A stretch of DNA of 53,090 bases from a virus, in IMG/VR virus record IMGVR_UViG_3300050121_000130, positions 1 to 53,090 of that record; one strand, 5' to 3'. Positions within the stretch are counted from its first letter, which is position 1. Each line of letters opens with the position of its first letter. This document shows, one piece after another, positions 24,338 to 53,090 of this stretch. Position numbers and translations under genes: made by a program. Below the pieces are notes generated by a model, which did no database searches, had not been told where the DNA came from, and saw only the letters and a program-made list of their open reading frames with translations.

Positions 24338-24943
24338 ATGACAGATGAACAGTTAGCTTGCGAAATTGCAAAGGGTATCGGATCAACGGGCGTGGAAGGC
24401 GGCTACAATAGCGTGTCATGTTCTACTGCTGGAGATTATCCATCAATGGGAATATCACAGTGGGAAGGACTTGGAGGACGAGGGGATACCTTGCTGGGGT
24501 ATATTGACGGAGGAAACAAATTTGCTGGAAGAAGTTATTCAGATATTCGGGATAACGGCGGACTTTCTGATTTACAAGGTTTATTAGATTCTACACAAGG
24601 TCAAGCAGCACAGAATGATATTTTGACTAATGATTGCCTAGAAATGTACTTACCAGCATTAAAACGTATCCCGGGATTTGATGATAGCAGATGCATGATT
24701 TATGCAGGTATATGGTGTCCAACAAGTCAGGACGTAGTACAACGGTTTTTGACTAATAGGTATGGCCAGTATGATTTGACTAATTTAGAGGCCGTACGGG
24801 ATATTTTTTGCGACCAATATTATATTGCTGCAAGTGTAGGTCCCAAATATGCTGAAGGGTACGCTAACAGGGCTAATAATACTTTTGATTATGTGTCAAA
24901 TCTGGATTTGTCGGCGTATGGTGTTCCACAATATGGAGTATAG
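24338..24943 (+). CDS. Putative endolysin, lysozyme-like, 201 aa
   Basis: Starts immediately after the holin candidate stop with AGGGGAGG upstream. The segment STGVEGGYNSVSCSTAGDYP and then MGISQWEG-GRGDTLL has the layout of lysozyme-superfamily phage hydrolases: an early Glu, a beta hairpin, then a G..QW motif. VEGG probably contains the catalytic Glu. No signal peptide, so release would need a holin. Exact glycosidase family not determined. Confidence 0.6.
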   Translation: MTDEQLACEIAKGIGSTGVEGGYNSVSCSTAGDYPSMGISQWEGLGGRGDTLLGYIDGGNKFAGRSYSDIRDNGGLSDLQGLLDSTQGQAAQNDILTNDCLEMYLPALKRIPGFDDSRCMIYAGIWCPTSQDVVQRFLTNRYGQYDLTNLEAVRDIFCDQYYIAASVGPKYAEGYANRANNTFDYVSNLDLSAYGVPQYGV

Positions 24944-25176: not shown

Positions 25177-25305
25177 ATGAGTGAACAAAAAAAGGCTGCT
25201 CACACAATTGGCGTTGTAGAGCAGTCAAAAGAAAAGATTATTACTAAGTTTGGTAATACAACTGTAGTTATGACTAAAGACTCAATTATGGCTACAGTTC
25301 AATAG
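25177..25305 (+). CDS. Small hypothetical protein, 42 aa
   Basis: ATG with a very strong GGAGGTGAC site. The product (MSEQKKAAHTIGVVEQSKEK, then IITKFGNTTVVMTKD) is a short beta-type sequence with no known family. Its 3' end overlaps by 14 bases the end of the convergent minus-strand gene, so the two transcripts would collide or pair. Confidence 0.55.
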   Translation: MSEQKKAAHTIGVVEQSKEKIITKFGNTTVVMTKDSIMATVQ

Positions 25306-25531
25306 AAACAGTCCCGTCTGCATTAGTTATAAACTTTTTGTTTGATTTGACGATAATCTTGTCGGCGTATTGGGTCATCTCCAAAACTAAACCATTTGGG
25401 TATGTTGAGACGTTTTTTATGCAGTCGGGCGTCTGAGTTATCTCTTTTTTTATATCCGTAAACTCAATACCAAATGGGGTAAGAATAGTAGGGAAAGCAC
25501 CAGTAGCATATGTATATATGTATTCATCCAT
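25292..25531 (-). CDS. Lone minus-strand protein, 79 aa
   Basis: ATG at 25531 (reading left) with GGGAGGTGAT upstream; a start nine bases earlier would run into the ribosome site. It is the only minus-strand gene within the late region. Pattern YTYATGAFPTILTPFGIEFTD, then KNVSTYPNGLVLEMTQYADK and KKFITNADGTVSIEL; family not recognised. The 25-base element at 25560-25584 upstream is shared with the other lone minus gene at 34404. Moron-like expression in the lysogen is inferred. Confidence 0.65.
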   Translation of the reverse strand: MDEYIYTYATGAFPTILTPFGIEFTDIKKEITQTPDCIKNVSTYPNGLVLEMTQYADKIIVKSNKKFITNADGTVSIEL

Positions 25532-25540
25532 AAATATCAC

Positions 25541-25555
25541 CTCCCTTCAAGGGAG
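25541..25555 (-). promoter_or_regulatory. Hairpin overlapping the ribosome site of the 79-aa gene
   Basis: Read on the minus strand, CTCCC-TTGAA-GGGAG is a perfect five-pair hairpin whose 3' side is part of the GGGAGGTGAT ribosome site. It could mask the site and lower or condition translation. Confidence 0.45.
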
Positions 25556-25559
25556 ATAC

Positions 25560-25584
25560 TTCGACAAAAACCAATATTTTCCTA
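25560..25584 (-). promoter_or_regulatory. Conserved element, copy A, with Spo0A-box-like core
   Basis: Minus-strand reading TAGGAAAATATTGG then TTTTTGTCGAA. It matches copy B (34643-34667) at 23 of 25 bases; the only change is an AT/TA swap. TTTGTCGAA is the consensus of the 0A box bound by Spo0A in endospore formers. It lies about 14 bases before the ribosome site of the 25531 gene. Confidence 0.65.
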
Positions 25585-25595
25585 TCTGGTTTCAA

Positions 25596-25629
25596 AGAGA
25601 TTCGGCTAACCCGGATCTCTATTTTTAAT
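25596..25629 (+). terminator. Intrinsic terminator or attenuator before the 25651 gene
   Basis: AGAGATTCGG pairs with CCGGATCTCT (one G-U) around CTAAC, followed by ATTTTTAAT. It ends just upstream of the GGAGGA site of the next plus-strand gene, downstream of the minus-strand element. Confidence 0.65.
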
Positions 25630-25650
25630 AAAAATTTGGAGGAATGTAAG

Positions 25651-26031
25651 ATGGCAGACGAAACAACTACGACAGACCCGGCAGCAGTAATCCCGGCAAT
25701 AACTGACACTCCGGCAACAGATACCCCAGCAGTGGTACAAACTGACACGCAGAAAGCTATCACAGCCGTGGAGACAGCTTTACAGTCGCTAAAAACGGCA
25801 AGCGGCGATTTGATCACGGCTGAAATTGCGGGGCTTGAGGCAACGCTCACAAGTCTGAAAACACAGGCCGAAGCCGAAGCAGCAGCAGTGGAAACTGCAG
25901 TTAAAGGCGAGCTCACAAAAGTTGAAACAGCAGAAAAAACATTCGCGGCAACTTATGGCACAGTGATTCTGCACACGTTTTACATTATCACATTGCTTTA
26001 TATTGCTGGCAGACTTGCCAATCTATTCTAA
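25651..26031 (+). CDS. Ala/Thr-rich protein with C-terminal membrane segment, 126 aa
   Basis: ATG at 25651 with GGAGGA upstream; the in-frame TTG at 25636 is part of that site. Thr/Pro/Ala-rich N-terminus, then a helical coil (about 30-100, TAEIAGLEATLTSLKTQAEA) and a C-terminal hydrophobic segment (TVILHTFYIITLLYIAG). A tail-anchored coil suits an accessory lysis or membrane role. No family assigned. The stop overlaps the next ATG (TAATG). Confidence 0.55.
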   Translation: MADETTTTDPAAVIPAITDTPATDTPAVVQTDTQKAITAVETALQSLKTASGDLITAEIAGLEATLTSLKTQAEAEAAAVETAVKGELTKVETAEKTFAATYGTVILHTFYIITLLYIAGRLANLF

Positions 26032-26174
26032 TGGACGCATTTTTATTGGATGATTTATCTAAAATTCGGGACGTGATTAACAGGTTGGAAAACTATGATC
26101 CGACATTATTTGCGGATACGATTGAATTTTTGATGAGTGAAGCGAGAAAATTAGAAAATAGATTGGAGGACTGA
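26031..26174 (+). CDS. Small acidic helical protein, 47 aa
   Basis: Starts within the previous stop and ends six bases before the next gene's TTG. Entirely helical by composition (LDDLSKIRDVINRLENYD, SEARKLENRLED). It is probably translationally coupled. Function unknown. Confidence 0.5.
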   Translation: MDAFLLDDLSKIRDVINRLENYDPTLFADTIEFLMSEARKLENRLED

Positions 26175-26180
26175 TTCAGA

Positions 26181-26792
26181 TTGACTGACATAAAAAATTA
26201 TATTATTGCTCATAAAACTGCGATTATTATTATAGTCGCAGTTATTTTGTTGGCTGGCGCCTACTTTTTAGGCCGTAATCATGCAACTACAGCGGTAAAA
26301 GAAGCCGAGCCCGTTGTAGTGTCGCAGGATAACTCAACAAACGTTAATGCCCTGCAAAACCTTCTGAATATCGCTGAACAAAATGCCAAAGACCTTCAGG
26401 CTAAAATTGCCGCTATTCAAGCCGGTCACGCCACCCCAGTAGCAAATTATTATGTGACAGCTCCAACAGTAGAAAAAGCCGCCGATACTGTTCAGCAGCA
26501 GATCAAAAATAATGATCCCACATTGCCGCCTGCTGCGCTCGAAAAAACGGATAGGACTGTTGTCACGGCGATTACAAAAGATTCAACAGGTGCCACGTTG
26601 CCAGCCGATCAGCAGAAAGTAGAAGTGTATAAGATTGATCTGGACCATCACATTGAAGTCGGTGGTGGTGCTGGAATTATGAATGGTAAAGCCGTTGCCG
26701 TAGCGGCGGTGCAGTACAATACGAAAAATATTGCTTATGAGGTAGTCGGGAACAAAGATAGTGGTATTGGAATAGTGAAATATAGGTTTTAA
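26181..26792 (+). CDS. Membrane-anchored protein, possible spanin-like, 203 aa
   Basis: TTG start with GGAGGA upstream. N-terminal membrane segment (about 12-30, AIIIIVAVILLAGAYFLG), Ala-rich coil (about 50-85), then a Thr/Lys/Asp-rich exterior domain (about 90-203) with a Gly-rich stretch (GGGAGIMNGKAVAVAAVQYN). Position near the lysis cluster and topology suit an envelope role. It is the last gene before a strong terminator. Confidence 0.5.
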   Translation: MTDIKNYIIAHKTAIIIIVAVILLAGAYFLGRNHATTAVKEAEPVVVSQDNSTNVNALQNLLNIAEQNAKDLQAKIAAIQAGHATPVANYYVTAPTVEKAADTVQQQIKNNDPTLPPAALEKTDRTVVTAITKDSTGATLPADQQKVEVYKIDLDHHIEVGGGAGIMNGKAVAVAAVQYNTKNIAYEVVGNKDSGIGIVKYRF

Positions 26793-26850
26793 TGTGGTAT
26801 AATAAAGCTATACAACCACTTTAAGTGGTCCAAAACGACACACGCAAAAA

Positions 26851-26887
26851 AAGCACTCAGCCTGTAAATGGTTGAGTGCTTTTTTTA
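26851..26887 (+). terminator. Strong intrinsic terminator, end of the late operon
   Basis: AAGCACTCA pairs with TGAGTGCTT around a 13-base loop and continues into a seven-U tract. It is followed by a new promoter, so it marks the end of the head, tail and lysis transcript. Confidence 0.85.
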
Positions 26888-26934
26888 TGCCTAAAAATAA
26901 ATTTAAAATATCGCAATTATTTATATAAAATGTG

Positions 26935-26963
26935 TTGCTTTAAGTGTGTAGTTATAGTACAAT
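26935..26963 (+). promoter_or_regulatory. Promoter, sigma-70/SigA type
   Basis: TTGCTT at 26935-26940, 17 bases, then TACAAT at 26958-26963. The transcript would begin near 26970 with a leader holding two hairpins, GAGGT/ACCTC (about 26971-26987) and CAGTCA/TGACTG (about 27003-27024), before the AAGGAG site of the 27036 gene. Confidence 0.6.
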
Positions 26964-27035
26964 ATAGACAAGAGGTAAGGGAAACCTCAAATAAACTGAG
27001 TCAGTCAGCATTGAGCGTGACTGCAAGGAGATAAA

Positions 27036-27287
27036 ATGAAAAAGTTTTATGCAGGAAAAAGCTATATGGGAACCAATTATACTTATGAGTCAGAATGCTG
27101 GTCAGCATACGCTTTCGGCAGCAAGGCCGAACGTGATGAATGGGTAGAAAAGAATGAATGGGATCAGAACACTAGCCAGTACGTCGCTGAAGCAGTTACC
27201 AGAACAGTAGCTTACAAAATTGCAGGTATCGACAGTAAATATAAAACACCAGTAGTGGAAGAAAATCGGTTGTCTTACAAATATTAA
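27036..27287 (+). CDS. Hypothetical protein, 83 aa
   Basis: ATG with AAGGAG upstream, behind its own promoter and structured leader. Tyr- and Glu-rich, with the central KAERDEWVEKNEWDQ region probably helical. No family. Being the first gene after the late terminator with its own promoter suggests independent expression, perhaps in the lysogen. Confidence 0.6.
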   Translation: MKKFYAGKSYMGTNYTYESECWSAYAFGSKAERDEWVEKNEWDQNTSQYVAEAVTRTVAYKIAGIDSKYKTPVVEENRLSYKY

Positions 27288-27305
27288 CATGGGGAATAAC
27301 GCAGA

Positions 27306-27344
27306 GTGACCGGGTTCGCCCGGTTAATGCGGCAAGCTGGTCAC
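27306..27344 (+). ncRNA. Structured leader RNA candidate
   Basis: GTGACC (27306-27311) pairs with GGTCAC (27339-27344), enclosing a GGG-TTCG-CCC hairpin with a very stable UUCG loop. It is GC-rich against AT-rich surroundings and lies upstream of the 27384 gene. It could be a regulatory leader. An ORF reading through it (from 27306) is less likely than the ATG at 27384. Confidence 0.35.
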
Positions 27345-27383
27345 AAGCCCAGCGAAATAGACCGCGGCGAAGGAGCGAATAAA

Positions 27384-27590
27384 ATGGAATATGGCAAAGA
27401 TGATTTTATGGAAATGATTAAGGATTGGCAAACTGACAATTCGCCGGAATACGATGATTTAAAAATTGAAGAAGCAGAAATTAACGAAAATGGCAAATGG
27501 GAATCCATTGCAGAAGACGAGAAATGCACTTACTCGCTAACCGACGATGGCACCGGGAACATAGTCATAAATTACCTTGATACAAAATAA
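27384..27590 (+). CDS. Hypothetical acidic protein, 68 aa
   Basis: ATG with GAAGGAG upstream; an in-frame extension to 27306 would translate the structured region and has no ribosome site. Strongly acidic (DNSPEYDDLKIEEAEINENG), with no recognised family. Strong acidity with small size recalls DNA-mimic or anti-defence proteins, but nothing specific supports that here. It ends in front of a terminator-like hairpin. Confidence 0.55.
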   Translation: MEYGKDDFMEMIKDWQTDNSPEYDDLKIEEAEINENGKWESIAEDEKCTYSLTDDGTGNIVINYLDTK

Positions 27591-27594
27591 AACC

Positions 27595-27618
27595 AGCCGG
27601 GCATCGTCCCGGCTTTAA
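27595..27618 (+). terminator. Hairpin with U-rich tail before the 27637 gene
   Basis: AGCCGGG-CATCGT-CCCGGCT followed by TTAATTTT; the AAGGAGG ribosome site of the next gene follows directly. Strong stem, moderate tail. Confidence 0.6.
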
Positions 27619-27636
27619 TTTTAAGGAGGAAAACAT

Positions 27637-27978
27637 ATGAGCAGAAAACAAATATGGTTAAATCCACCGCTTGAACGTCTTGCCGAACAATGCGGACAGG
27701 CCAAAGGGCGCGATGGTAAATTTTCCGCTCGTTTGGGTGATATTGTGGAGCGTTACGAGGCTATTATGGCTAACACGCCCGTCCCAGCAATGACTGATGA
27801 AGAAAAAATGATACTCGGTGCCGCTGTATGTGGAAGTGTATTATCAACAATCACAATTAAATACTTGCATGAGGGTATATCTGATCTAGGTATCCCCGGC
27901 GCAATAGAGTTGGCGGAAAAGGTACAGGAGTGGACGGCTGCTGAGCGGATCGCTGCTATTGAATCATTAAAGGTATGA
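27637..27978 (+). CDS. Hypothetical protein, 113 aa
   Basis: ATG with AAGGAGGA upstream. Helical, with a conserved-looking N-terminus (RKQIWLNPPLERLAEQCGQA). RDGKFSARLGDIVERYE resembles plasmid or phage proteins that bind DNA as small helical domains, but no family is recognised. It overlaps the zinc-finger gene by four bases (ATGA), so the two are coupled. Confidence 0.6.
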   Translation: MSRKQIWLNPPLERLAEQCGQAKGRDGKFSARLGDIVERYEAIMANTPVPAMTDEEKMILGAAVCGSVLSTITIKYLHEGISDLGIPGAIELAEKVQEWTAAERIAAIESLKV

Positions 27979-28511
27979 ATCTCCGTCTCAAACCAAAAAC
28001 CTGCGCTACATGTGGTGTGGGTTTTATCGGTGGTCCAACGGCCACATATTGCCCAACCTGCCGAGCTGAACGAATACGCCAGCATGATCGCGAGCGTCAT
28101 CAGCGCAAGCTTGCTGGACAACTCAGGCACATTGGATCAACTGATCTATGCTTAATTTGTGGCAAGTCATATGAGGTTGTAGGTGGAAATCAAAAATATT
28201 GTGAGCCTTGTTCGGTGGCTAAAACTAAAAGACACGCTCACGAGTTATGGCTTGCTGAATATTATGATGATCCAGTTAAACGTCAAAAATACCTGCAACG
28301 AGCTAGGCAATGGGCTGAATCGCATAAGGACCGGATGGCTGAAATATTGCGGAAAAGCTATAAACGCCATCTGGATGACATTAAAGATAAGCGCCGCAAA
28401 ATGTACGGCGTAAAATTAAGACCATTAGGGCGGACGGAAATCTGCCCGAAGTGTGGCAACGAGTTTATAGTTTGTGAACGCAACCAGAAATACTGCCCCA
28501 CCTGCAAATAA
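27975..28511 (+). CDS. Triple zinc-ribbon protein, 178 aa
   Basis: Three CxxC...CxxC ribbons: CATCG with CPTC (about 11-33), CLICG with CEPC (about 58-80), CPKCG with CPTC (about 157-177, at the very end). The last two end in a shared KYC-P/E-xC pattern. A basic helical linker (about 85-140) joins the second and third. It probably binds nucleic acid. It is the last plus gene before a two-way terminator. Confidence 0.7.
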   Translation: MNLRLKPKTCATCGVGFIGGPTATYCPTCRAERIRQHDRERHQRKLAGQLRHIGSTDLCLICGKSYEVVGGNQKYCEPCSVAKTKRHAHELWLAEYYDDPVKRQKYLQRARQWAESHKDRMAEILRKSYKRHLDDIKDKRRKMYGVKLRPLGRTEICPKCGNEFIVCERNQKYCPTCK

Positions 28512-28543
28512 TCCCTCATCCAGCAACGGGTGGGGGATTATTT
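28506..28543. terminator. Terminator usable from both strands
   Basis: AAATAATCCC pairs with GGGATTATTT around an 18-base loop, between the convergent zinc-ribbon gene and the minus-strand secreted-protein gene. The A-tract and T-tract sides allow both directions. Confidence 0.6.
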
Positions 28544-28565
28544 ACATATATAACGGGATATGATT

Positions 28566-29198
28566 TTATTTGGCTAGCGAAATAACATTATTTCCATTCA
28601 AACTGCGTTGATATATTTCACTTTGGTGATCGTCTACATACGAACTTATAAAATCGTACCAAATACCCATAGGGGTGCCGGAATAAGATTGATACCATAC
28701 TCCCATGCCAGTTACAGCCATAGAATATGTTAGCGCTTGATTAGATTGTTTTTCTATAAACGAACCTCCAGCTCCAAGCCTTGCAGTAGTAGTTTCGTTG
28801 ACGGTTATTTCTTTACCCGATTCTGGGTTTTTATCTAGTGGGCCATAACCAATAGTAATGCCGTTCTGATTATAGTCTGACTTTTCTAGTGGCAAAATTA
28901 AGCCATTAGATAAATTTACTATTATATGAAATTCTGATGAGACAATCGTTTTATCTAAACTAAACATATTATCAATAGACTGTGTATTTATAGCTTTAGT
29001 TGGACTCTTATAAAATATCTTCATTGCTACTTTTACTTTGTGATGTTCGTTTCCTTCGATAAATATCGGGCCGTAAACAATTGAATCAGTATCGACATAA
29101 TAGTCCTCCGACTGATTAGAGTAAACCCAGACATATTCCGCCGAACACGGCACAGCCATCATCATTAATAGGCATGCCAATATAATAACCTTTTTCAC
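28566..29198 (-). CDS. Secreted protein near attP, possible lysogenic conversion factor, 210 aa
   Basis: GTG start with AAGGAG upstream. A clear signal peptide (MKKVIILACLLMMMAVPCSA) should be cleaved before EYVW. The mature part begins WVYSNQSEDYYVDTDSIVYG, resembling small exported surface proteins of low-GC Negativicutes, with no enzymatic motif. It is alone on the minus strand, next to the attachment site, and bounded by terminators, the classic place for a moron expressed from the prophage. Confidence 0.7.
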   Translation of the reverse strand: MKKVIILACLLMMMAVPCSAEYVWVYSNQSEDYYVDTDSIVYGPIFIEGNEHHKVKVAMKIFYKSPTKAINTQSIDNMFSLDKTIVSSEFHIIVNLSNGLILPLEKSDYNQNGITIGYGPLDKNPESGKEITVNETTTARLGAGGSFIEKQSNQALTYSMAVTGMGVWYQSYSGTPMGIWYDFISSYVDDHQSEIYQRSLNGNNVISLAK

Positions 29199-29379
29199 AC
29201 GATCATCTCCTTACCCATAATTACCACGCTTGGTAAGATTATCCTGCATTCGAGCGTAATAATTTTAAACAGACCTCTCCCCCACCCTGCAAATAAGCAT
29301 AGATATTGATAGTATTTCCATGTTTTACGAGGTTTATACCTGGTAGGGGAGGGAGGACGGAAATTATTTTTTGAAATAA

Positions 29380-29412
29380 AAAAGCCTCCGATCATTTCGT
29401 CGGAGGCTTTTG
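29380..29412. terminator. Bidirectional intrinsic terminator
   Basis: AAAGCCTCCGA pairs with TCGGAGGCTTTT around an eight-base loop. It works from either side and isolates the secreted-protein gene from the attachment region. The stretch 29199-29553 holds only this and the left arm sites. Confidence 0.75.
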
Positions 29413-29431
29413 GTATAGTAGCAAACACCGT

Positions 29432-29464
29432 TTTGCTAATCCGTTTGCTAATCAGATTAGCAAA
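29432..29464. repeat. attP left arm: integrase arm-type sites
   Basis: TTTGCTAATC at 29432-29441 and 29444-29453 (12-base period) and its inverted copy GATTAGCAAA at 29455-29464. The same decamer occurs three times on the other side of the core at the same period. Confidence 0.65.
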
Positions 29465-29553
29465 ATTTAAACTTATTTAAAAATTAACCATGTGATAAAA
29501 CTCAGTAAAATAGCCACTATATAGGATTTGACTTACTCCGTGGAATGGTTTGG

Positions 29554-29603
29554 CATCGTTGACATCGATGAGGTCAGAGGTTCGAGTCCTCCTAACCCCA
29601 CCA
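29554..29603 (+). other. attP core: 3' half of a tRNA-Val(GAC)-like gene
   Basis: The anticodon arm CATCG-TTGACAT-CGATG (29554-29570) has U33, anticodon GAC and A37. The variable loop AGGTC, T arm AGAGG-TTCGAGT-CCTCC (one mismatched pair), acceptor strand TAACCCC, discriminator A and CCA (to 29603) follow. No matching 5' half (GGGGTTA) lies upstream, so it is not a functional tRNA here. Tyrosine integrases commonly use tRNA 3' ends, so insertion would rebuild the host tRNA. Confidence 0.7.
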
Positions 29604-29620
29604 TAACAAACGTAGTAAAA

Positions 29621-30859
29621 TCACGGCTTCGCAAGGTTTAACTTGCGGAGCTTTTTTATTTTGCTAATCGGTTTGCTAATCTCTTTGCTAATCTTTTTCT
29701 TTCCAAACATATCATCCATTGCCGTAGCTGTTTCGTTTTGCATATCATTTGCAACGTGCTGGTAGTAGTTGGCTGTAAAACTAGACTTCTTATGGCGGAG
29801 CTTCTTCGATACAATTTTAACGTCAATTTTTTGTCTAAGGAGCAGGGTAGCGTGAGTATGTCGCATGTCGTGAATTCGAATAACAGGCAACTTCATCTTT
29901 TCTTTGTCTTCTTCTTTAATTTTTTCGTCATTATCAATTTTGATATTTTGATTCTTAATGAATTTTATGAAATCATGATAGAGCGAATTCGGATATAACG
30001 GCGATCCGTCTTCGTGGCAACACACATATTCTATTTTTTTAAAGCACGGACCGAGCTGTAATTTATTTAATTTTTGCTGTTTCAATTCATTTTCAAGAGC
30101 AAGAATAACAACATGTGGAATTGGTATGTATCCTTCACTGCTGTCTGTTTTTAACGGGCCGAGTTCTAATTGCTTTGTTTCTCTGTTCAAACTTAAACTG
30201 TTTCTAATAAAAGCCGATCTTTCTGCTAGATTTATATCTTCCCATCTAAGACCGCATATCTCGCCACGCCGTAATCCGCACAAAAACCCCAGCAGAGCAA
30301 CTATATATAAAGATGTAGGTTTGGCTAGGTCAAGAAACCTTTGAACCTCTTCTGGCGTATATACGGCATTATGCGGGGCGTTTCGTTTCGGTGAATCAAC
30401 AGATGCACACGGGTTTTTACTGATTAACTGCCAGTCAACCGCTTTATCTAATGCTTGTTTTAAAACTGAATATTGACATTGAACCGAAGTAGGCCGCAAA
30501 CCTCTTTCTCGCTCGGTGTTTAAATATTCCTTAATTTTTAACGGGCTTAGCTTTTCTAATTCGACACTACCGATAATTTTAATGATGTTTTTAATTTTAA
30601 AGCTATAGCTTGATGAGGTCCCTTCTCTCTTATCTGGCTTTATTTCAACATCAAGCCATTTGTTTAAAAAACTCTCAACGGTAGTTTTTTCCGAAAAAAC
30701 AACTTCCCCACGAGAATAATCGGTAATTAACTCTCTCTCTTTTCGTTGAGCATCACGCAAAGACGGACCAGCATTAATCCATTTTTGCTTTTTTTTGTTT
30801 TGAGCATCGCGGTAGGTAACTATTACAGAATAGTTATCGCCGCGTTTTTTTATTGCCAT
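29621..30859 (-). CDS. int: Tyrosine-family site-specific integrase, 412 aa
   Basis: ATG at 30859 with GGGAGG upstream; the longer reading to 30931 has no ribosome site. The N-terminal arm-binding domain (about 1-70) begins MAIKKRGDNYSVIVTYRDAQ; a SAM-like core-binding domain spans about 75-165. The catalytic domain has LLGFLCGLRRGEICGLRWEDI (Arg I), HDMRHTHATLLLR (HxxR) and a C-terminal YYQHV Tyr. The extreme C-terminus has an ISK-type repeat (ISKEISKPISKI) encoded by arm-type sites. It recombines attP with the host tRNA gene. Confidence 0.93.
   Translation of the reverse strand: MAIKKRGDNYSVIVTYRDAQNKKKQKWINAGPSLRDAQRKERELITDYSRGEVVFSEKTTVESFLNKWLDVEIKPDKREGTSSSYSFKIKNIIKIIGSVELEKLSPLKIKEYLNTERERGLRPTSVQCQYSVLKQALDKAVDWQLISKNPCASVDSPKRNAPHNAVYTPEEVQRFLDLAKPTSLYIVALLGFLCGLRRGEICGLRWEDINLAERSAFIRNSLSLNRETKQLELGPLKTDSSEGYIPIPHVVILALENELKQQKLNKLQLGPCFKKIEYVCCHEDGSPLYPNSLYHDFIKFIKNQNIKIDNDEKIKEEDKEKMKLPVIRIHDMRHTHATLLLRQKIDVKIVSKKLRHKKSSFTANYYQHVANDMQNETATAMDDMFGKKKISKEISKPISKIKKLRKLNLAKP
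29626..29657 (+). terminator. Intrinsic terminator just past the attP core
   Basis: GCTTCGCAAG pairs with CTTGCGGAGC around a six-base loop, followed by six U. It reads on the plus strand from the tRNA half and lies inside the last codons of the minus-strand integrase gene. In the integrated state it would end transcription of the rebuilt host tRNA. Confidence 0.6.
29660..29693. repeat. attP right arm: three phased integrase arm-type sites within int
   Basis: TTTGCTAATC at 29660-29669, 29672-29681 and 29684-29693, exactly 12 bases apart. On the minus strand they encode the ISK triplet repeats at the integrase C-terminus. Matching copies lie left of the core. Confidence 0.65.
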
Positions 30860-30982
30860 AGATAAACCTCCCTTTAAATAATAAAAAAACATAGCATCAA
30901 TAGTGGCTGCGATGTTTAGGTAAATAATCAATAGCGTCTACAATTTTTGATATATTTCGACATTCATTAACAAAAATAGAAG

Positions 30983-31336
30983 TTATTTTTGTTCGGTTTG
31001 TTTTAACGAATCCGAATCAAGAACATAATCAATAATGGATTTGTTTTTTTCTGAAGTATTTTTAATTTTTTTTAACATGTTAACATCTTCGTCGGAGCTG
31101 ACAAAATTAAGCTCTTTTGACGGACTACGCCCATAAAGCCAATCAATAGAAACGTTGTAAAAATCAGCTATTTCTAAAAGTTCCTCTATGTGAGGCATAC
31201 GTTTTCCTAATTCGTGACTGCTTATTGTTGAAGTAGAACCATAACCCATAAATTTTTGAACGTCCTTTTGAAGGTATCCAGCTTCTTCGCGTGCTTGTCT
31301 CAATCTAGCACCTACCAATTTAGCCGTGTTTTTCAT
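30983..31336 (-). CDS. CI-type repressor, HTH XRE family, 117 aa
   Basis: Minus strand, with GGAGGAGG before its ATG. Residues about 6-65 are a helix-turn-helix (RLRQAREEAGYLQKDVQKF, TSTISSHELGKRMPHIEELL), then NVSIDWLYGR, the usual end of XRE domains. The C-terminus is short and has no LexA-type Ser-Lys peptidase, so induction would not be by RecA-driven self-cleavage. It diverges from the Cro-like gene over three operators and would keep the prophage silent. Confidence 0.85.
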   Translation of the reverse strand: MKNTAKLVGARLRQAREEAGYLQKDVQKFMGYGSTSTISSHELGKRMPHIEELLEIADFYNVSIDWLYGRSPSKELNFVSSDEDVNMLKKIKNTSEKNKSIIDYVLDSDSLKQTEQK

Positions 31337-31375
31337 TTATTCCTCCTCCTTCTATAAATATTTGTCTATGCCATA

Positions 31376-31403
31376 ATATTACCACAAAAAGCGAGATTAT
31401 CAA
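31376..31403 (-). promoter_or_regulatory. Repressor promoter with operator 1 in its spacer
   Basis: Minus-strand TTGATA (31398-31403) and TAATAT (31376-31381) with a 16-base spacer that contains operator 1 (31382-31394, CCACAAAAAGCGA). Repressor bound there would limit its own synthesis. Confidence 0.6.
31382..31394. promoter_or_regulatory. Operator O1
   Basis: CCACAAAAAGCGA, matching the palindromic consensus TCGCAAAAAGCGA at 11 of 13 positions. The weakest of the four copies. Confidence 0.65.
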
Positions 31404-31411
31404 TGTTTTTT

Positions 31412-31424
31412 TCGCAAAAAGCAA
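31412..31424. promoter_or_regulatory. Operator O2
   Basis: TCGCAAAAAGCAA, 12 of 13 positions of the consensus; 30 bases from O1 and 28 from O3, a roughly three-turn spacing that favours cooperative binding. Confidence 0.7.
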
Positions 31425-31432
31425 AATAAATG

Positions 31433-31461
31433 TTGAACTTCGCAAAAAGCGATGTTATAAT
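31433..31461 (+). promoter_or_regulatory. Early rightward promoter with operator O3 in its spacer
   Basis: TTGAAC at 31433-31438, 17-base spacer, TATAAT at 31456-31461. Operator O3 (31440-31452, a perfect TCGCAAAAAGCGA) fills the spacer, so bound repressor must exclude polymerase. It drives the cro-like gene and probably the whole early region. Confidence 0.8.
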
Positions 31462-31507
31462 AAAAATTGTAAAAAGATAGAATAAATAATCGAAGGGTGG
31501 TGATAAT

Positions 31508-31738
31508 ATGAATTTAGGATCGAATATACGCAAAATAAGGGTTTCAAAAGGAATTACTCAACAATATATCGTTCAAAAGGTCGGTAAATACCCTTCTTGG
31601 CTGTCAGAAATCGAAGCTGGAAACACTCGGTTGCTTGCGGACGACTTAGGAGATTTGGCTGATGCGCTGAATGTGTCGATTGTTGAATTTTTTTCGCCTG
31701 ATAATATCGCAAAAAGCGAAGTCGAGGAGACAAAATAA
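31508..31738 (+). CDS. Cro-like HTH regulator, 76 aa
   Basis: ATG with GGGTGGTGAT upstream. One XRE-type helix-turn-helix domain fills most of the protein (NIRKIRVSKGITQQYIVQKV, YPSWLSEIEAGNTRLLAD, LADALNVSIVEFF). It is the first gene of the early transcript, and a fourth operator (31707-31719) lies in its last codons. By analogy it would lower repressor synthesis on entry to the lytic cycle. Confidence 0.8.
   Translation: MNLGSNIRKIRVSKGITQQYIVQKVGKYPSWLSEIEAGNTRLLADDLGDLADALNVSIVEFFSPDNIAKSEVEETK
31707..31719. promoter_or_regulatory. Operator O4 within the cro-like gene
   Basis: Perfect TCGCAAAAAGCGA about 255 bases downstream of O3, inside the coding sequence. It could act as a roadblock or an anchor for a repression loop. 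Confidence 0.65.
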
Positions 31739-31740
31739 CA

Positions 31741-31917
31741 ATGTTCGAGGACTCCAAAATATATACCGCCAAAGAATTAGCCGAAAAAATTAAAATGTCG
31801 GTTTCTTGGATATACGAACAAATCATCCAAAATAAAATTCCTCATGTGAAAATGGGGAACAGAGCAAGGTTTTTAGGTTGGAGATTAAACGAGTGGATAA
31901 AGGAAGGGATGAAGTGA
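31741..31917 (+). CDS. Excisionase-like HTH protein, 58 aa
   Basis: ATG three bases after the Cro-like stop. It is a single MerR/excisionase-type winged helix: KIYTAKELAEKIKMSVSWIY, then KIPHVKMGNRARF and WRLNEWIKEG, the pattern of HTH_17 proteins. Excisionases bend DNA at attP arms to favour excision. Its place in the early operon, apart from int, would let it be made on induction. Another DNA-binding role is possible. Confidence 0.65.
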   Translation: MFEDSKIYTAKELAEKIKMSVSWIYEQIIQNKIPHVKMGNRARFLGWRLNEWIKEGMK

Positions 31918-32744
31918 ACAAATTAGCCTTAGTCAAATCAGAAGACTTTCACGGTGTACAATGTGACTTTTGGAAGGGCGATTCAGACAACTATTTTATG
32001 ACATTGGCGCAATTGTCCCAAGCACTTGAATATGCGAGCAAGAGCGCAATTGAAAAGATACTAGCTCGTAATGAATATCTTAAAAGTACCGAGTTTTCAA
32101 CTACCTACAAATTGTCGGTAGGGGGTACGGACAAAACGGGGGTACCTCAAACCGAACAAGAAACCCGCGTTTTCACCGAAGACGGTATCTATGAAGTGAC
32201 CATGTTAGCCAAGACCGACCGTGCCAAAGAGTTCCGCGCCAAGGTTCGCCAAATCCTTAAAGACCTGCGCCAAGGTAAAGTTAAAGCTTTCAAACAAATT
32301 GACCCGCGCCTAATCGAAGCCAGAGAGAAAAACGCACAGGCCCGTCTCATGAACGCTAAGCGAAAAGATGCAGAGTTTCTTATCTCACAGGTTGGCAGGT
32401 TATCCCCGCAATCGGCAGAGTTAGTCAGAATTAACGCCATTGAAATGATTGCTGGCAAAGGGTTTCTCCCTAGACCTAAAACCGAAAAGCATTACACGGC
32501 TGGTGACATTGCAAAAGAAGCCGGAATATCAGCCAATATGGTTGGGAAGATAGCGAATGCGAACGGCTTTAAAACGGCTGAATATGGCTGTGTGGTGCTG
32601 GATAAGTCGAAGTATAGTGATAAGCAAGTTGAGACGTTTCGATATAACGAGGCGGGAAGAACGGCGATATTGGGAGCTATTCCAAAGCGGCCATATCCTA
32701 CCACAGAAGAAATGCTAAACACTCAGTTAACATCGTTGATATAA
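31914..32744 (+). CDS. Phage antirepressor-like protein, 276 aa
   Basis: GTG at 31914 overlapping the previous stop (GTGA). The N-terminal domain (about 1-115) has the Bro-like VQCDFWKGDSDNYFMTLAQLSQAL, TRVFTEDGIYEVTMLAKTDRAKEF and RQILKDLRQG. A C-terminal HTH-like part (about 195-276) reads HYTAGDIAKEAGISANMVGK. It probably antagonises the repressor or another phage regulator. It is second to the Bro-N gene at 1299 in this window. Confidence 0.8.
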   Translation: MNKLALVKSEDFHGVQCDFWKGDSDNYFMTLAQLSQALEYASKSAIEKILARNEYLKSTEFSTTYKLSVGGTDKTGVPQTEQETRVFTEDGIYEVTMLAKTDRAKEFRAKVRQILKDLRQGKVKAFKQIDPRLIEAREKNAQARLMNAKRKDAEFLISQVGRLSPQSAELVRINAIEMIAGKGFLPRPKTEKHYTAGDIAKEAGISANMVGKIANANGFKTAEYGCVVLDKSKYSDKQVETFRYNEAGRTAILGAIPKRPYPTTEEMLNTQLTSLI

Positions 32745-32754
32745 AGTCAGCCTA

Positions 32755-32773
32755 GCCGGACCTAATCTCCGGC
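32755..32773 (+). terminator. Intergenic hairpin
   Basis: GCCGGA-CCTAATC-TCCGGC, with no U tract (GAATAAAT follows). It lies before the ParB-like gene. Probably an RNA processing or stability element, not a full terminator. Confidence 0.4.
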
Positions 32774-32808
32774 GAATAAATGTTGGACAAGCAAAGCGAG
32801 GTGAAAAC

Positions 32809-33795
32809 ATGTCAAACAGATATCAATTCATGCCGGACTTATCGCCTGAAGATTACACCGAACTTAAAAACGATATTACCAAGCGAGGGGTCCAGGTTGC
32901 GATTGAGTATGACGAAGATGGAAACATACTCGACGGCCATCATCGGTTGAAAATTTGTGAAGAACTGGGATTAACTGACTGGCCTAAAGTCGTTAGGGTG
33001 GGGATGACAGAAGCGCAAAAACGAGAACACGCCCGCAAATTAAACATGGCCCGCCGGCAGTTAAATAGGGAGCAACGGCAGGAGTTGATTCGCCAGCAGT
33101 TGCAGGAAACGCCTGAAAAGAGTGATAGGCAGATTGCAACAGGGTTAGGAGTGGCAAATAGTACCGTATCGCGTACCCGCGAAAAAATGGAAGATGAAAA
33201 TCAACTGTTGCAAAGCCACAGTTCAATCGGTGCTGATGGGAAAGAGCGTCCCCGCCAAGTCGAACGTAAACCTATAACCATCTTCAATCCTACGGAATCA
33301 AAAATAATCTCCGCAAAAGAATTAGTTCAAAATGCCTCCCCTGAATTGGTACAGGCTGTTGCTGGAAACAAAGTGCCGTTAATGCAAGCTTTTTCAGTAG
33401 CTTCTAGTTCCACGCCAGAGCAACAGACGGAAGCGCTTAAACGTCTAGAAGATGGCAAAGTACCTTATTTGATGGAGGGACTTAATCAACAGAAGATGGA
33501 GGAATATTTAAACCTAACACCCGAGCAGCTTCAAGAATCACGTCAACGTATTAGTGATGGTGATAAGAGGATTGATAACGAATTTAGGTTGTCGAAGCAA
33601 ATTGACAAAGCAATATTTGCCATCTTAAGTATTCAGCCAAACGAAATAGAAGAATCCGTACAATACTGGTTAGAGCATACTCGGGAATTTGATGAAAGAG
33701 ACCAAATTATTATTGATATTTCTGATTGCCTTGAACGATTGCGGTTACTCAAAGTGGCATTTTCAAAAACAAAAACTTTAAAGGTGGTGAGATAG
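32809..33795 (+). CDS. ParB/Srx-domain DNA-binding protein, 328 aa
   Basis: ATG with GAGGTGAAA upstream. Residues about 5-85 are a ParB N-terminal-like domain (LSPEDYTELKNDITKRGVQV, GNILDGHHRLKICEELGL). An HTH-rich middle follows (about 85-130, REQRQELIRQQLQ, SDRQIATGLGVANSTVSRTR). The C-terminal half is charged and coiled (about 200-328). Such phage proteins may act in regulation or partition. Being in an integrative phage, a regulatory role is likelier than plasmid partition. Confidence 0.8.
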   Translation: MSNRYQFMPDLSPEDYTELKNDITKRGVQVAIEYDEDGNILDGHHRLKICEELGLTDWPKVVRVGMTEAQKREHARKLNMARRQLNREQRQELIRQQLQETPEKSDRQIATGLGVANSTVSRTREKMEDENQLLQSHSSIGADGKERPRQVERKPITIFNPTESKIISAKELVQNASPELVQAVAGNKVPLMQAFSVASSSTPEQQTEALKRLEDGKVPYLMEGLNQQKMEEYLNLTPEQLQESRQRISDGDKRIDNEFRLSKQIDKAIFAILSIQPNEIEESVQYWLEHTREFDERDQIIIDISDCLERLRLLKVAFSKTKTLKVVR

Positions 33796-34203
33796 ATGAA
33801 GAAAAAAGCAACACCCAAATCGGCTATTTGTGAATGGATTCGCGAAAACAACATAACGAATCAAGCTGATATTGTCGCTCGGTGCAAGGCTTGCATGGAC
33901 AAACCTAATCCGCAAAAACTTGAAGATCAGCATTGGAACCGCATGGCAAATTCAGTAACGGCGTTAGTTCGCGATAAAAATAACGTTAGAATCGCGTTTT
34001 CCATTCACGGAAGTAAGGGAGCGGAAGTTCATAATATCGAAAAAACTCTTGATTCTGACGCACTCAAAATAATCCGCAAGCGATACGACTTGAATATAAA
34101 AGGTAGCGTAAGATCATTGGCTAAGATCAAGATGCGTCAAGCTGAACTTGCTGGACAAACTTCGTTCGTTTTTGAGTCAACCCAGACCCCACACAATATG
34201 TAG
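33796..34203 (+). CDS. Hypothetical basic protein, 135 aa
   Basis: ATG directly after the ParB-like stop, with GGTGGTGAG upstream. Basic; N-terminal helices (SAICEWIRENNITNQADIVARC), then a strand-rich middle (NSVTALVRDKNNVRIAFSIH) and a basic tail. No family recognised. The layout suggests nucleic-acid binding. Confidence 0.6.
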   Translation: MKKKATPKSAICEWIRENNITNQADIVARCKACMDKPNPQKLEDQHWNRMANSVTALVRDKNNVRIAFSIHGSKGAEVHNIEKTLDSDALKIIRKRYDLNIKGSVRSLAKIKMRQAELAGQTSFVFESTQTPHNM

Positions 34204-34248
34204 GATGTGCTGGAGATACAAAAATTATGCACAAAAGGAGATAAATTT

Positions 34249-34407
34249 ATGACAGAGCAAAAAAATACCGCCGCTGCTGAAGACAGAGACGGGGAAGTTG
34301 AATTGGTACAGTGTTCAAAGTGTATGGGTTGTATGGTACCGGAAATATTGGAAAATGGTGAATGTCCATATTGCGGGGAGAAGTTAACAGATGCTGACCG
34401 GATTTAA
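34249..34407 (+). CDS. Small zinc-ribbon protein, 52 aa
   Basis: ATG at 34249 with AAAAGGAG upstream, in preference to an in-frame TTG/GTG nearer 34207. Two CxxC pairs (CSKCMGC and CPYCGE) make a rubredoxin-like zinc ribbon. It overlaps by four bases the end of the convergent minus gene. Confidence 0.6.
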   Translation: MTEQKNTAAAEDRDGEVELVQCSKCMGCMVPEILENGECPYCGEKLTDADRI

Positions 34408-34616
34408 ATTTCTAAAATTTTATTTCTCTTGAAGCCTTTTGGCTTAACTGCTTTTCCTTTATCCTCAGGCCAACCAAGAGTATATCGGGTATTGCGAAGA
34501 TCAAACAGTCCCGGCCCCGTTTCAATCAATAACCATCCGTTTGCAAGAAAGATATCAATATATTCTTTGATAGATTCATCTGTTCTGGGAGTCGAATTAA
34601 AATAAGTTACTTCCAT
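34404..34616 (-). CDS. Lone minus-strand protein, 70 aa
   Basis: ATG at 34616 with AAGGAGGT upstream. MEVTYFNSTPRTDESIKEYI then FLANGWLLIETGPGLFDL and TRYTLGWPEDKGK suggest a small alpha/beta protein with a GW-L-L-ETG motif; family not recognised. It is alone on the minus strand within the early plus-strand operon. It carries upstream the same 25-base element as the gene at 25531, so both are probably controlled by one signal. Confidence 0.65.
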   Translation of the reverse strand: MEVTYFNSTPRTDESIKEYIDIFLANGWLLIETGPGLFDLRNTRYTLGWPEDKGKAVKPKGFKRNKILEI

Positions 34617-34642
34617 ATCAATTACCTCCTTAAAACAGTTGA

Positions 34643-34667
34643 TTCGACAAAAACCATAATTTTCCTA
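34643..34667 (-). promoter_or_regulatory. Conserved element, copy B, with Spo0A-box-like core
   Basis: Minus-strand TAGGAAAATTATGG then TTTTTGTCGAA, 23 of 25 bases the same as copy A. It ends about 13 bases before the AAGGAGG of the 34616 gene, nearly the same distance as in copy A. Confidence 0.65.
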
Positions 34668-51222: not shown

Positions 51223-53090
51223 TCCCGATTAACATATTAGAATTCCTTCAACTCATGTACGGCGACTGCGAAGATTATTTCATAACTTTATGGGCTAAAA
51301 AAATGCCAACTAAGTGGTTATCAATCAACGATCTTAATGCCATTGCCGAAACCGCAAAATCAATTAAAAATGATGTGTATTTTGGGGTTGGCCTATCTAA
51401 AAATAAAAAATCAGAGGGGAGAATGTCCGTCGACGATATCGACGGCGTTCCATCCATCTGGCTTGATTTGGACCTAAAAGACGATACACATCCTAATAAT
51501 CCTGAGACGGTTGATGTGTTGATGGCTTATGTCGAGAGCTTGCCCCTGCAGCCTAGCGTTATCGTATTCAGCGGCCACGGAATTCATTGCCATTGGATTT
51601 TCAGAGAGTTCTTAACCATTGAATCACCCGATGAACGCATGCAGGTTAAATCATTGTTTAAAGGCTGGCAGAGTTTTATTCGCAAAGGTGCGGCAATAAT
51701 CGGTTGGAAAGTCGACAGCACTTTTGATTTAAGCCGAGTGTTGAGACTACCTGAAACAACAAATTCAAAATACCCCAATGAACCAATTGAAGTTACTGTA
51801 ATATCTCATAACGACAACAGGTTTAATCCTTCTGATTTTGATTGCTATATTTCTGAAGAACCAGAAAAACAGCCAAAAAAACGCGAAAAGTTTAAACGGT
51901 TACCTAGTGATGGTCCTGCAAAGCTGGTAATTGACAATTGTATATTTATACAGAAATGTGTTAAGTCAGCAAAAACACTTACTGAACCGAATTGGCTGGC
52001 AATGATCAGTAATATTGCTCGCTGCTCGGATGGACCAGAAATGTGTCATGAGTTGTCAAAGCCATACGATGGTTACTCTTACGAGGAAACCGAGGATAAA
52101 ATAGCGCATGTTTTAAACGATATGCATGGACCTCAGACTTGCAAATACATTCAAGACGGCTTGGGATTCTCAGAGTGTCCGAGTGATTGCGGAGTTAAAT
52201 CACCTTGTTCGTTCGCACTTACTAAAAAATCAGCAGATCCAATTCCAGCGGATTTTTGGGAGACGGAAATTATTGAACCGCCGAAAATCAAAGTATTTAC
52301 AGACCTTGGAAATGCTGAATATTTTGCTAAAGTTTATGAGAAAAAAATTAAATATTGCATTGAAATGGAAAAATGGTTGATTTGGTATGATGGAAGATGG
52401 AATATTGATTACTCCAATAACATTGTTTTTCTTGCTGGTAAATGCGTCCGTGGCATGTGTAATCAATTAGCTGATATGGCTGATGATGATGCGAAGAAAA
52501 AATTATTCAAGCACAGTTTGAAATCTGAAGATGCAAGCAGGCTAAAAGCATTTATTTCGATTGCTAAAAGTTATCTTCCTGTATCGATTAAAGAATTAGA
52601 TCAAGATTCATGGCTCATAAATTGTCAAAATGGAATTATTGACTTAAAGACAGGTGAATTATTACCGCATGATCCCAGCAAAAATATGATGCGTATGATT
52701 AAAGCCAGTTATGATTCACAGGCTAAATGTCCATTGTTCGAAAAATTCATCAATGATATTTTTGATGGCAATAAAAATGTAATTCAATTCATGCAACGAT
52801 TTTTGGGTTATTGTCTTACTGGCGACACGCGAGAACAACAGTTTATAATTGCTCACGGCAGCGGTAGGAATGGAAAAGGCACCCTGTTGAACTTAATACT
52901 TTATATCCTGGATGACTACACAAAATCAATCCCCAGTGAAGTGCTTTATGTCAGGAAAAATGAAAAGCCCAGTAATGAGATAGCGCGTCTCGCCGGTGCC
53001 AGGTTCGTACTCGCCAGCGAAGGCGAAAAAGGCAAGAGATTAGACGAACCACTTGTAAAAAAGTTGACAGGTCAGGATTTACTCTCGGCT
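51219..53090 (+). CDS. Phage/plasmid primase-helicase (P4/D5 type), N-terminal part
   Basis: GTG at 51219 (AAGGGAAG upstream); runs off the window in frame (624 codons) and would continue from base 1. Prim-pol domain about 25-180 with WLDLDLKDD (DxD) and SGHGIHCHWIF. A Cys-rich patch near 308-333 (CKYIQDGLGFSECPSDC) follows. A D5_N-type region (about 360-500) leads to Walker A SGRNGKGTLLN near 549. It primes and unwinds phage DNA. It ends in VLYVRKNEKPSNEI...KKLTGQDLLSA, the same residues as encoded at the left end. Confidence 0.9.
   Translation, partial: MIPINILEFLQLMYGDCEDYFITLWAKKMPTKWLSINDLNAIAETAKSIKNDVYFGVGLSKNKKSEGRMSVDDIDGVPSIWLDLDLKDDTHPNNPETVDVLMAYVESLPLQPSVIVFSGHGIHCHWIFREFLTIESPDERMQVKSLFKGWQSFIRKGAAIIGWKVDSTFDLSRVLRLPETTNSKYPNEPIEVTVISHNDNRFNPSDFDCYISEEPEKQPKKREKFKRLPSDGPAKLVIDNCIFIQKCVKSAKTLTEPNWLAMISNIARCSDGPEMCHELSKPYDGYSYEETEDKIAHVLNDMHGPQTCKYIQDGLGFSECPSDCGVKSPCSFALTKKSADPIPADFWETEIIEPPKIKVFTDLGNAEYFAKVYEKKIKYCIEMEKWLIWYDGRWNIDYSNNIVFLAGKCVRGMCNQLADMADDDAKKKLFKHSLKSEDASRLKAFISIAKSYLPVSIKELDQDSWLINCQNGIIDLKTGELLPHDPSKNMMRMIKASYDSQAKCPLFEKFINDIFDGNKNVIQFMQRFLGYCLTGDTREQQFIIAHGSGRNGKGTLLNLILYILDDYTKSIPSEVLYVRKNEKPSNEIARLAGARFVLASEGEKGKRLDEPLVKKLTGQDLLSA
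52938..53063 (+). repeat. Terminal direct repeat, right copy
   Basis: Identical to bases 1-126. Bases 53064-53090 differ from 127-153 at 9 positions, all synonymous (Leu, Gln, Leu, Ser and Ala codons). See the left copy. Confidence 0.95.

Follow-up and report, generated by a model that had tools for sequence, protein, structure and literature searches.

A probable sigma-H-class promoter shared by two lone, counter-oriented accessory genes of a Bacillota phage

Two small genes of this phage, each standing alone and opposed to its neighbours, are preceded by nearly the same 25 bases, and the question is what this element does and why two unrelated genes should share it. We examined the whole stretch of 53,090 nucleotides from a virus (IMG/VR record IMGVR_UViG_3300050121_000130), referred to below as the window. 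A direct terminal repeat, 98 % identical, lies at 1-144 and 52938-53081, with the same reading frame continuing across it; given this near-identity and frame continuity, the record probably represents a complete phage genome with redundant ends. The repeat copies and the genes that follow them are:

25560-25584, repeat copy 1, TTCGACAAAAACCAATATTTTCCTA
34643-34667, repeat copy 2, TTCGACAAAAACCATAATTTTCCTA
25292..25531, minus strand, gene 1, 79 aa, a lone gene read as a moron; all-beta predicted protein
34404..34616, minus strand, gene 2, 70 aa, a lone gene read as a moron; strong ribosome-binding site AAGGAGG, no stable leader hairpin

The earlier note had reported a 25-base repeat just before the ribosome-binding sites of the two lone minus-strand genes, and both its positions and its identity (23 of 25 bases, AT/TA being the sole difference) were confirmed. 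The copies are the sole pair of 25-mers with two or fewer mismatches in the whole window, terminal repeat excluded, and a comparable pair at any position arose in 2 of 120 windows simulated with an order-2 Markov model, a figure that does not yet demand a position just upstream of the ribosome-binding sites of lone genes. As the note had also held, the 25-base pair is rare whereas the 7-base core TGTCGAA alone is at chance level, unenriched with 8 occurrences in the window against 7.4 expected. The third TTCGACA of the note (30956), near the integrase, lacks AGGA 17-18 bases upstream and is not a copy of the element, but a chance-level match to the 7-mer. Short repeats of TTTGCTAATC are found at the 3' end of the integrase gene (29431-29453) and just past it (29659-29693). 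The identity of 23 of 25 bases and the placement of both copies before small minus-strand genes could also reflect a recent cassette duplication within one phage, the repeat being a functionless leftover of a shared ancestor sequence, but this explanation is hardly credible, as similarity ends at the element, with unrelated leaders and unrelated proteins beyond it, and in distant phages the consensus is kept, the -35 and -10 being retained while the spacer varies.

Morons are accessory genes, antisense to lytic operons and with promoters of their own, and recognizing them from DNA alone is hard (PMC7067206). L047 is related to the window around gene 1: its flanks align at 24935 and 25625, and the gene and the element are absent between them. 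L050 is related around gene 2 and has two other minus-strand genes at the corresponding position, both of them furnished with a copy of the element. Genes 1 and 2 are therefore absent or replaced between conserved flanks of related phages, and their counter-orientation and own promoter are apparent at the level of sequence. On these grounds we read both as morons that were inserted between conserved phage operons and that would be expressed in the lysogen. They share with known morons and prophage accessory loci (PMC7067206) their solitary position antisense to lytic operons, a promoter of their own and variability among related phages; they differ in that an alternative-sigma promoter appears to be common to many unrelated morons, an arrangement not described in the limited literature that we searched.

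Read on the minus strand, the repeat is TAGGAAAAT(AT/TA)TGGTTTTTGTCGAA, that is AGGA, 17 bases and GAA, which gives two predicted promoters:

25560..25584, minus strand, promoter of gene 1: -35 AGGA 25583-25580, 17-base spacer, -10 GTCGAA 25565-25560
34643..34667, minus strand, promoter of gene 2: -35 AGGA 34666-34663, 17-base spacer, -10 GTCGAAT 34648-34642

The layout, a -35 of AGGA(AAA), a 17-base spacer and a -10 of GTCGAA(T/G), obeys the SigH spacing rule at both copies. Drawn from start-site mapping by dRNA-seq in the Bacillota spore-former Sporomusa sphaeroides, that rule is AGGA and GAAT separated by 17-18 nt (PMC12456013); the AGGA-N17-GAA of the phage element equals it in sequence. 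The element has in common with the SigH promoters of S. sphaeroides and of Bacillus and Clostridium the AGGA -35, the GAA(T) -10, the 17-18 spacing and a short 5' leader, and is distinguished from them by its place in a phage and before morons, by a more conserved spacer (TGG and a T-run) and by a SigH role that is predicted (PMC12456013). This spacer conservation goes beyond the needs of a promoter and leaves room for an additional binding protein, which may act there. The transcription start sites of both promoters are likewise predictions from sequence. The best explanation as a whole, which we hold with good confidence, is that the element is a promoter of the sigma-H (Spo0H) class, each copy driving one lone counter-oriented moron.

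The genes spo0A and spoVG are classical SigH targets. In a survey of ten genomes from the order of a Thermincola MAG (G002), AGGA[AT] stood at the sigma-H distance from GAA in 8 of 9 spo0A and 6 of 6 spoVG genes located, compared with 30 of 544 background genes, so that the motif precedes these SigH targets in the lineage carrying the element. With AGGA[AT] placed in this way relative to GAA at these sites, TGTCGAA, the 0A-box lookalike, is read from sequence as the -10 region of a sigma-H-type promoter. The SigH family exceeded the cut-off in 9 of the ten genomes, as did the Spo0A family. Across the Thermincola phylum, matches to the element at two or fewer mismatches numbered about 60 forward against 2 in the control, and in two Thermincola-type MAGs (L005 and L007) the element lies upstream of cmk, encoding cytidylate kinase. 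A genome match in Desulfonatronum (L006) fell inside a coding frame and was taken as chance. Counts of AGGA..GAAT spacings over the whole sequence of two non-host genomes gave no clear peak at 17-18 and were too noisy.

Scans of viral contigs placed the element at sixteen further phage sites, before unrelated, mostly small genes, including those for a lipoprotein (L003), a KTSC-domain protein (L058/L050), a PIN-like protein (L060) and small proteins without family (L004, L053, L055, L065, L066 and others); genes bearing the element were nearly always alone and opposed to the flanking operon. Matches inside a reading frame (L057/L064) were taken as chance. The pattern of a second viral scan comprised the -10 and a Shine-Dalgarno hairpin alone, leaving the -35 unnamed, and returned 16 stretches, nine of them AT-rich and intergenic; AGG[AT] lay 17-18 bases upstream in all nine, the spacing being 17 except in L078, where it was 18. 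Hairpin-scan matches in L069-L072, L074 and L077 (GC-rich) and in L075 were without a -35 and were also taken as chance. In isolate prophages L051, L052, L054, L056, L059, L061 and L063, AGGATAATTATGGTTTTTGTTGAA stands before an 83-aa gene, without a leader hairpin.

These sites bear on the 0A-box match to which the earlier note had drawn attention. As an operator of this kind, TTTTTGTCGAA would be bound by Spo0A~P at the onset of sporulation, with repression or activation of both small genes. The exact 7-base core TGTCGAA is indeed in both copies, and the 0A-box core and flanking A/T have been described (PMC3485338). We nevertheless regard a 0A-box operator as unlikely: besides the lack of enrichment of the 7-mer in the window, conservation spans the whole promoter grammar of AGG[AT], 17-18 bases and GTCGAA, including positions well away from the 7-mer; TGTTGAA or GTTGAA, in which the C contacted by Spo0A is lost, occurs at three mutually independent phage sites (the L051 group, the second L058 site and L060), the search pattern having permitted this C-to-T change; and the sigma-H-type sites of spo0A itself in the G002 order end in most cases in CGTCGAA, not TGTCGAA. 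What survives of the proposal is that the repeat looks functional and regulatory, that the two small genes share it despite being unrelated, and that it points towards the network initiating sporulation, sigma-H being Spo0H. As the 7-mer overlaps the -10, bound Spo0A should block the promoter; Spo0A control may still be layered over SigH.

The recurrence of the element also bears on the idea of a phage repressor operator common to lysogenic genes, both genes following the CI-like repressor (30983-31336). The two copies in one phage and the near-palindromic gene 1 leader would suit such an operator, which we consider very improbable: the element recurs in phages that resemble this one little or not at all, it precedes a housekeeping gene of the host in Thermincola-type MAGs, its spacing can be either 17 or 18, and the integrase/repressor region gave no match to it.

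Recruitment of SigH by a temperate phage has a precedent in the prophages of Staphylococcus aureus, where SigH drives the int promoter (PMC2869324). Use of host SigH through a conserved promoter would be common to both systems; SigH drives the integrase there, whereas here the promoters precede lone accessory genes and the integrase is without the motif. Our search of a limited library of literature found no description of a SigH promoter combined with an antisense moron. As a host SigH promoter, the element would allow the two counter-oriented accessory genes of this Bacillota phage to be expressed on their own, independently of the lytic programme, for example in a lysogen while the host makes SigH.

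Family searches with both proteins gave nothing above chance, a back-translated pattern found no direct relatives of either, and a plasmid search for gene 1 had no match. The fold search with the gene 1 model yielded no solved relative, the top match being an unnamed 77-aa phage protein (E 6e-3, TM 0.76), and the gene 2 model is unreliable (pLDDT 45). The expectation that the element would accompany homologues held in phage L062, where it lies upstream of a gene 1 homologue of 63 % aa identity, and failed in the Terrisporobacter phage TVCOM_ph1, whose distant homologue (41 % aa) is also lone and counter-oriented but has no sigma-H-type site within 100 bases upstream.

The leader of gene 1 has a further feature:

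25535..25558, minus strand, gene 1 leader hairpin, inverted repeat TATCTCCC..GGGAGGTGATA; fold -11.5 kcal/mol

In the predicted fold, the Shine-Dalgarno sequence GGGAGG (25545-25540) is hidden within the hairpin. Similar hairpins are found in 13 phage leaders, including that of gene 1 but not that of gene 2, in which the stretch following the -10 mirrors the Shine-Dalgarno sequence (TATCACCT...AGGAGGTGATA); the leader directly behind the -10 folds into a hairpin of up to 10 pairs. Of 13 sites ascertained through the promoter only, 8 had the hairpin, compared with 2 of 50 window genes. Among the 13 leaders, 7 double-change cells were counted against 3.7 in shuffled sets, 7 being reached in 6 of 500 shuffles. 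The inner pairs are biased, since the pattern that retrieved some of the leaders names TCACC..GGAGGTGA; the double changes are held by the three outer pairs, which the pattern did not name, and we regard the covariation across leaders as partial.

Genes e, soc and 49 of phage T4 have Shine-Dalgarno sequences that are hidden in long transcripts and freed by a promoter starting inside the stem (PMC3014915). In gene 1 and the other hairpin leaders the predicted transcription start similarly lies inside the 5' arm; truncation at a start 6 to 8 bases beyond GAA weakens the computed fold, on average -11.1 kcal/mol across the leaders, to -5.3 or -3.1 kcal/mol. RNA from the gene's own promoter would largely escape the hairpin, and longer read-through RNA would keep it whole and be silenced in the manner of T4 gene e. 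The likeness to T4 consists of the stem that hides the Shine-Dalgarno sequence and of an own-promoter start, here predicted, inside it; the stem serves the timing of late genes in T4, whereas gating is suggested here, by a hairpin in gene 1 and not gene 2 (PMC3014915). Taken on its own, read-through gating by the hairpin seems to us somewhat short of an even chance, the idea being weakened because the genes are counter-oriented and same-strand read-through would be rare; the absence of the hairpin from gene 2 counts against it as a general part of the explanation.

A search of 399 genomes from the Thermincola phylum found the promoter-plus-hairpin pattern in none, so that phylum is not the host group. 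Relatives of the terminase are all below 60 % identity and belong to phages of many hosts, the best being in Paenibacillus. In the related prophage L050, positions 1-941 join host-like DNA, with a CheY-like gene and a tRNA cluster (Asp, Phe, Gly, Cys, Leu) beside a serine recombinase, and this flank could identify the host.

It is tempting to speculate, more tentatively still than for gating itself, that Bacillota phages carry a portable cassette in which a SigH promoter starts inside a hairpin that hides the Shine-Dalgarno sequence, keeping unrelated accessory genes silent in read-through RNA. Such genes would be translated solely from their own growth-phase-controlled transcript, and, if this is true, lysogenic-conversion genes would be findable from sequence alone. 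A shared promoter-plus-hairpin signature would make a systematic list of the accessory genes of Bacillota phages possible, and would link such genes in prophages to the transition-state sigma factor of the host, extending the single case of SigH and int from Staphylococcus.
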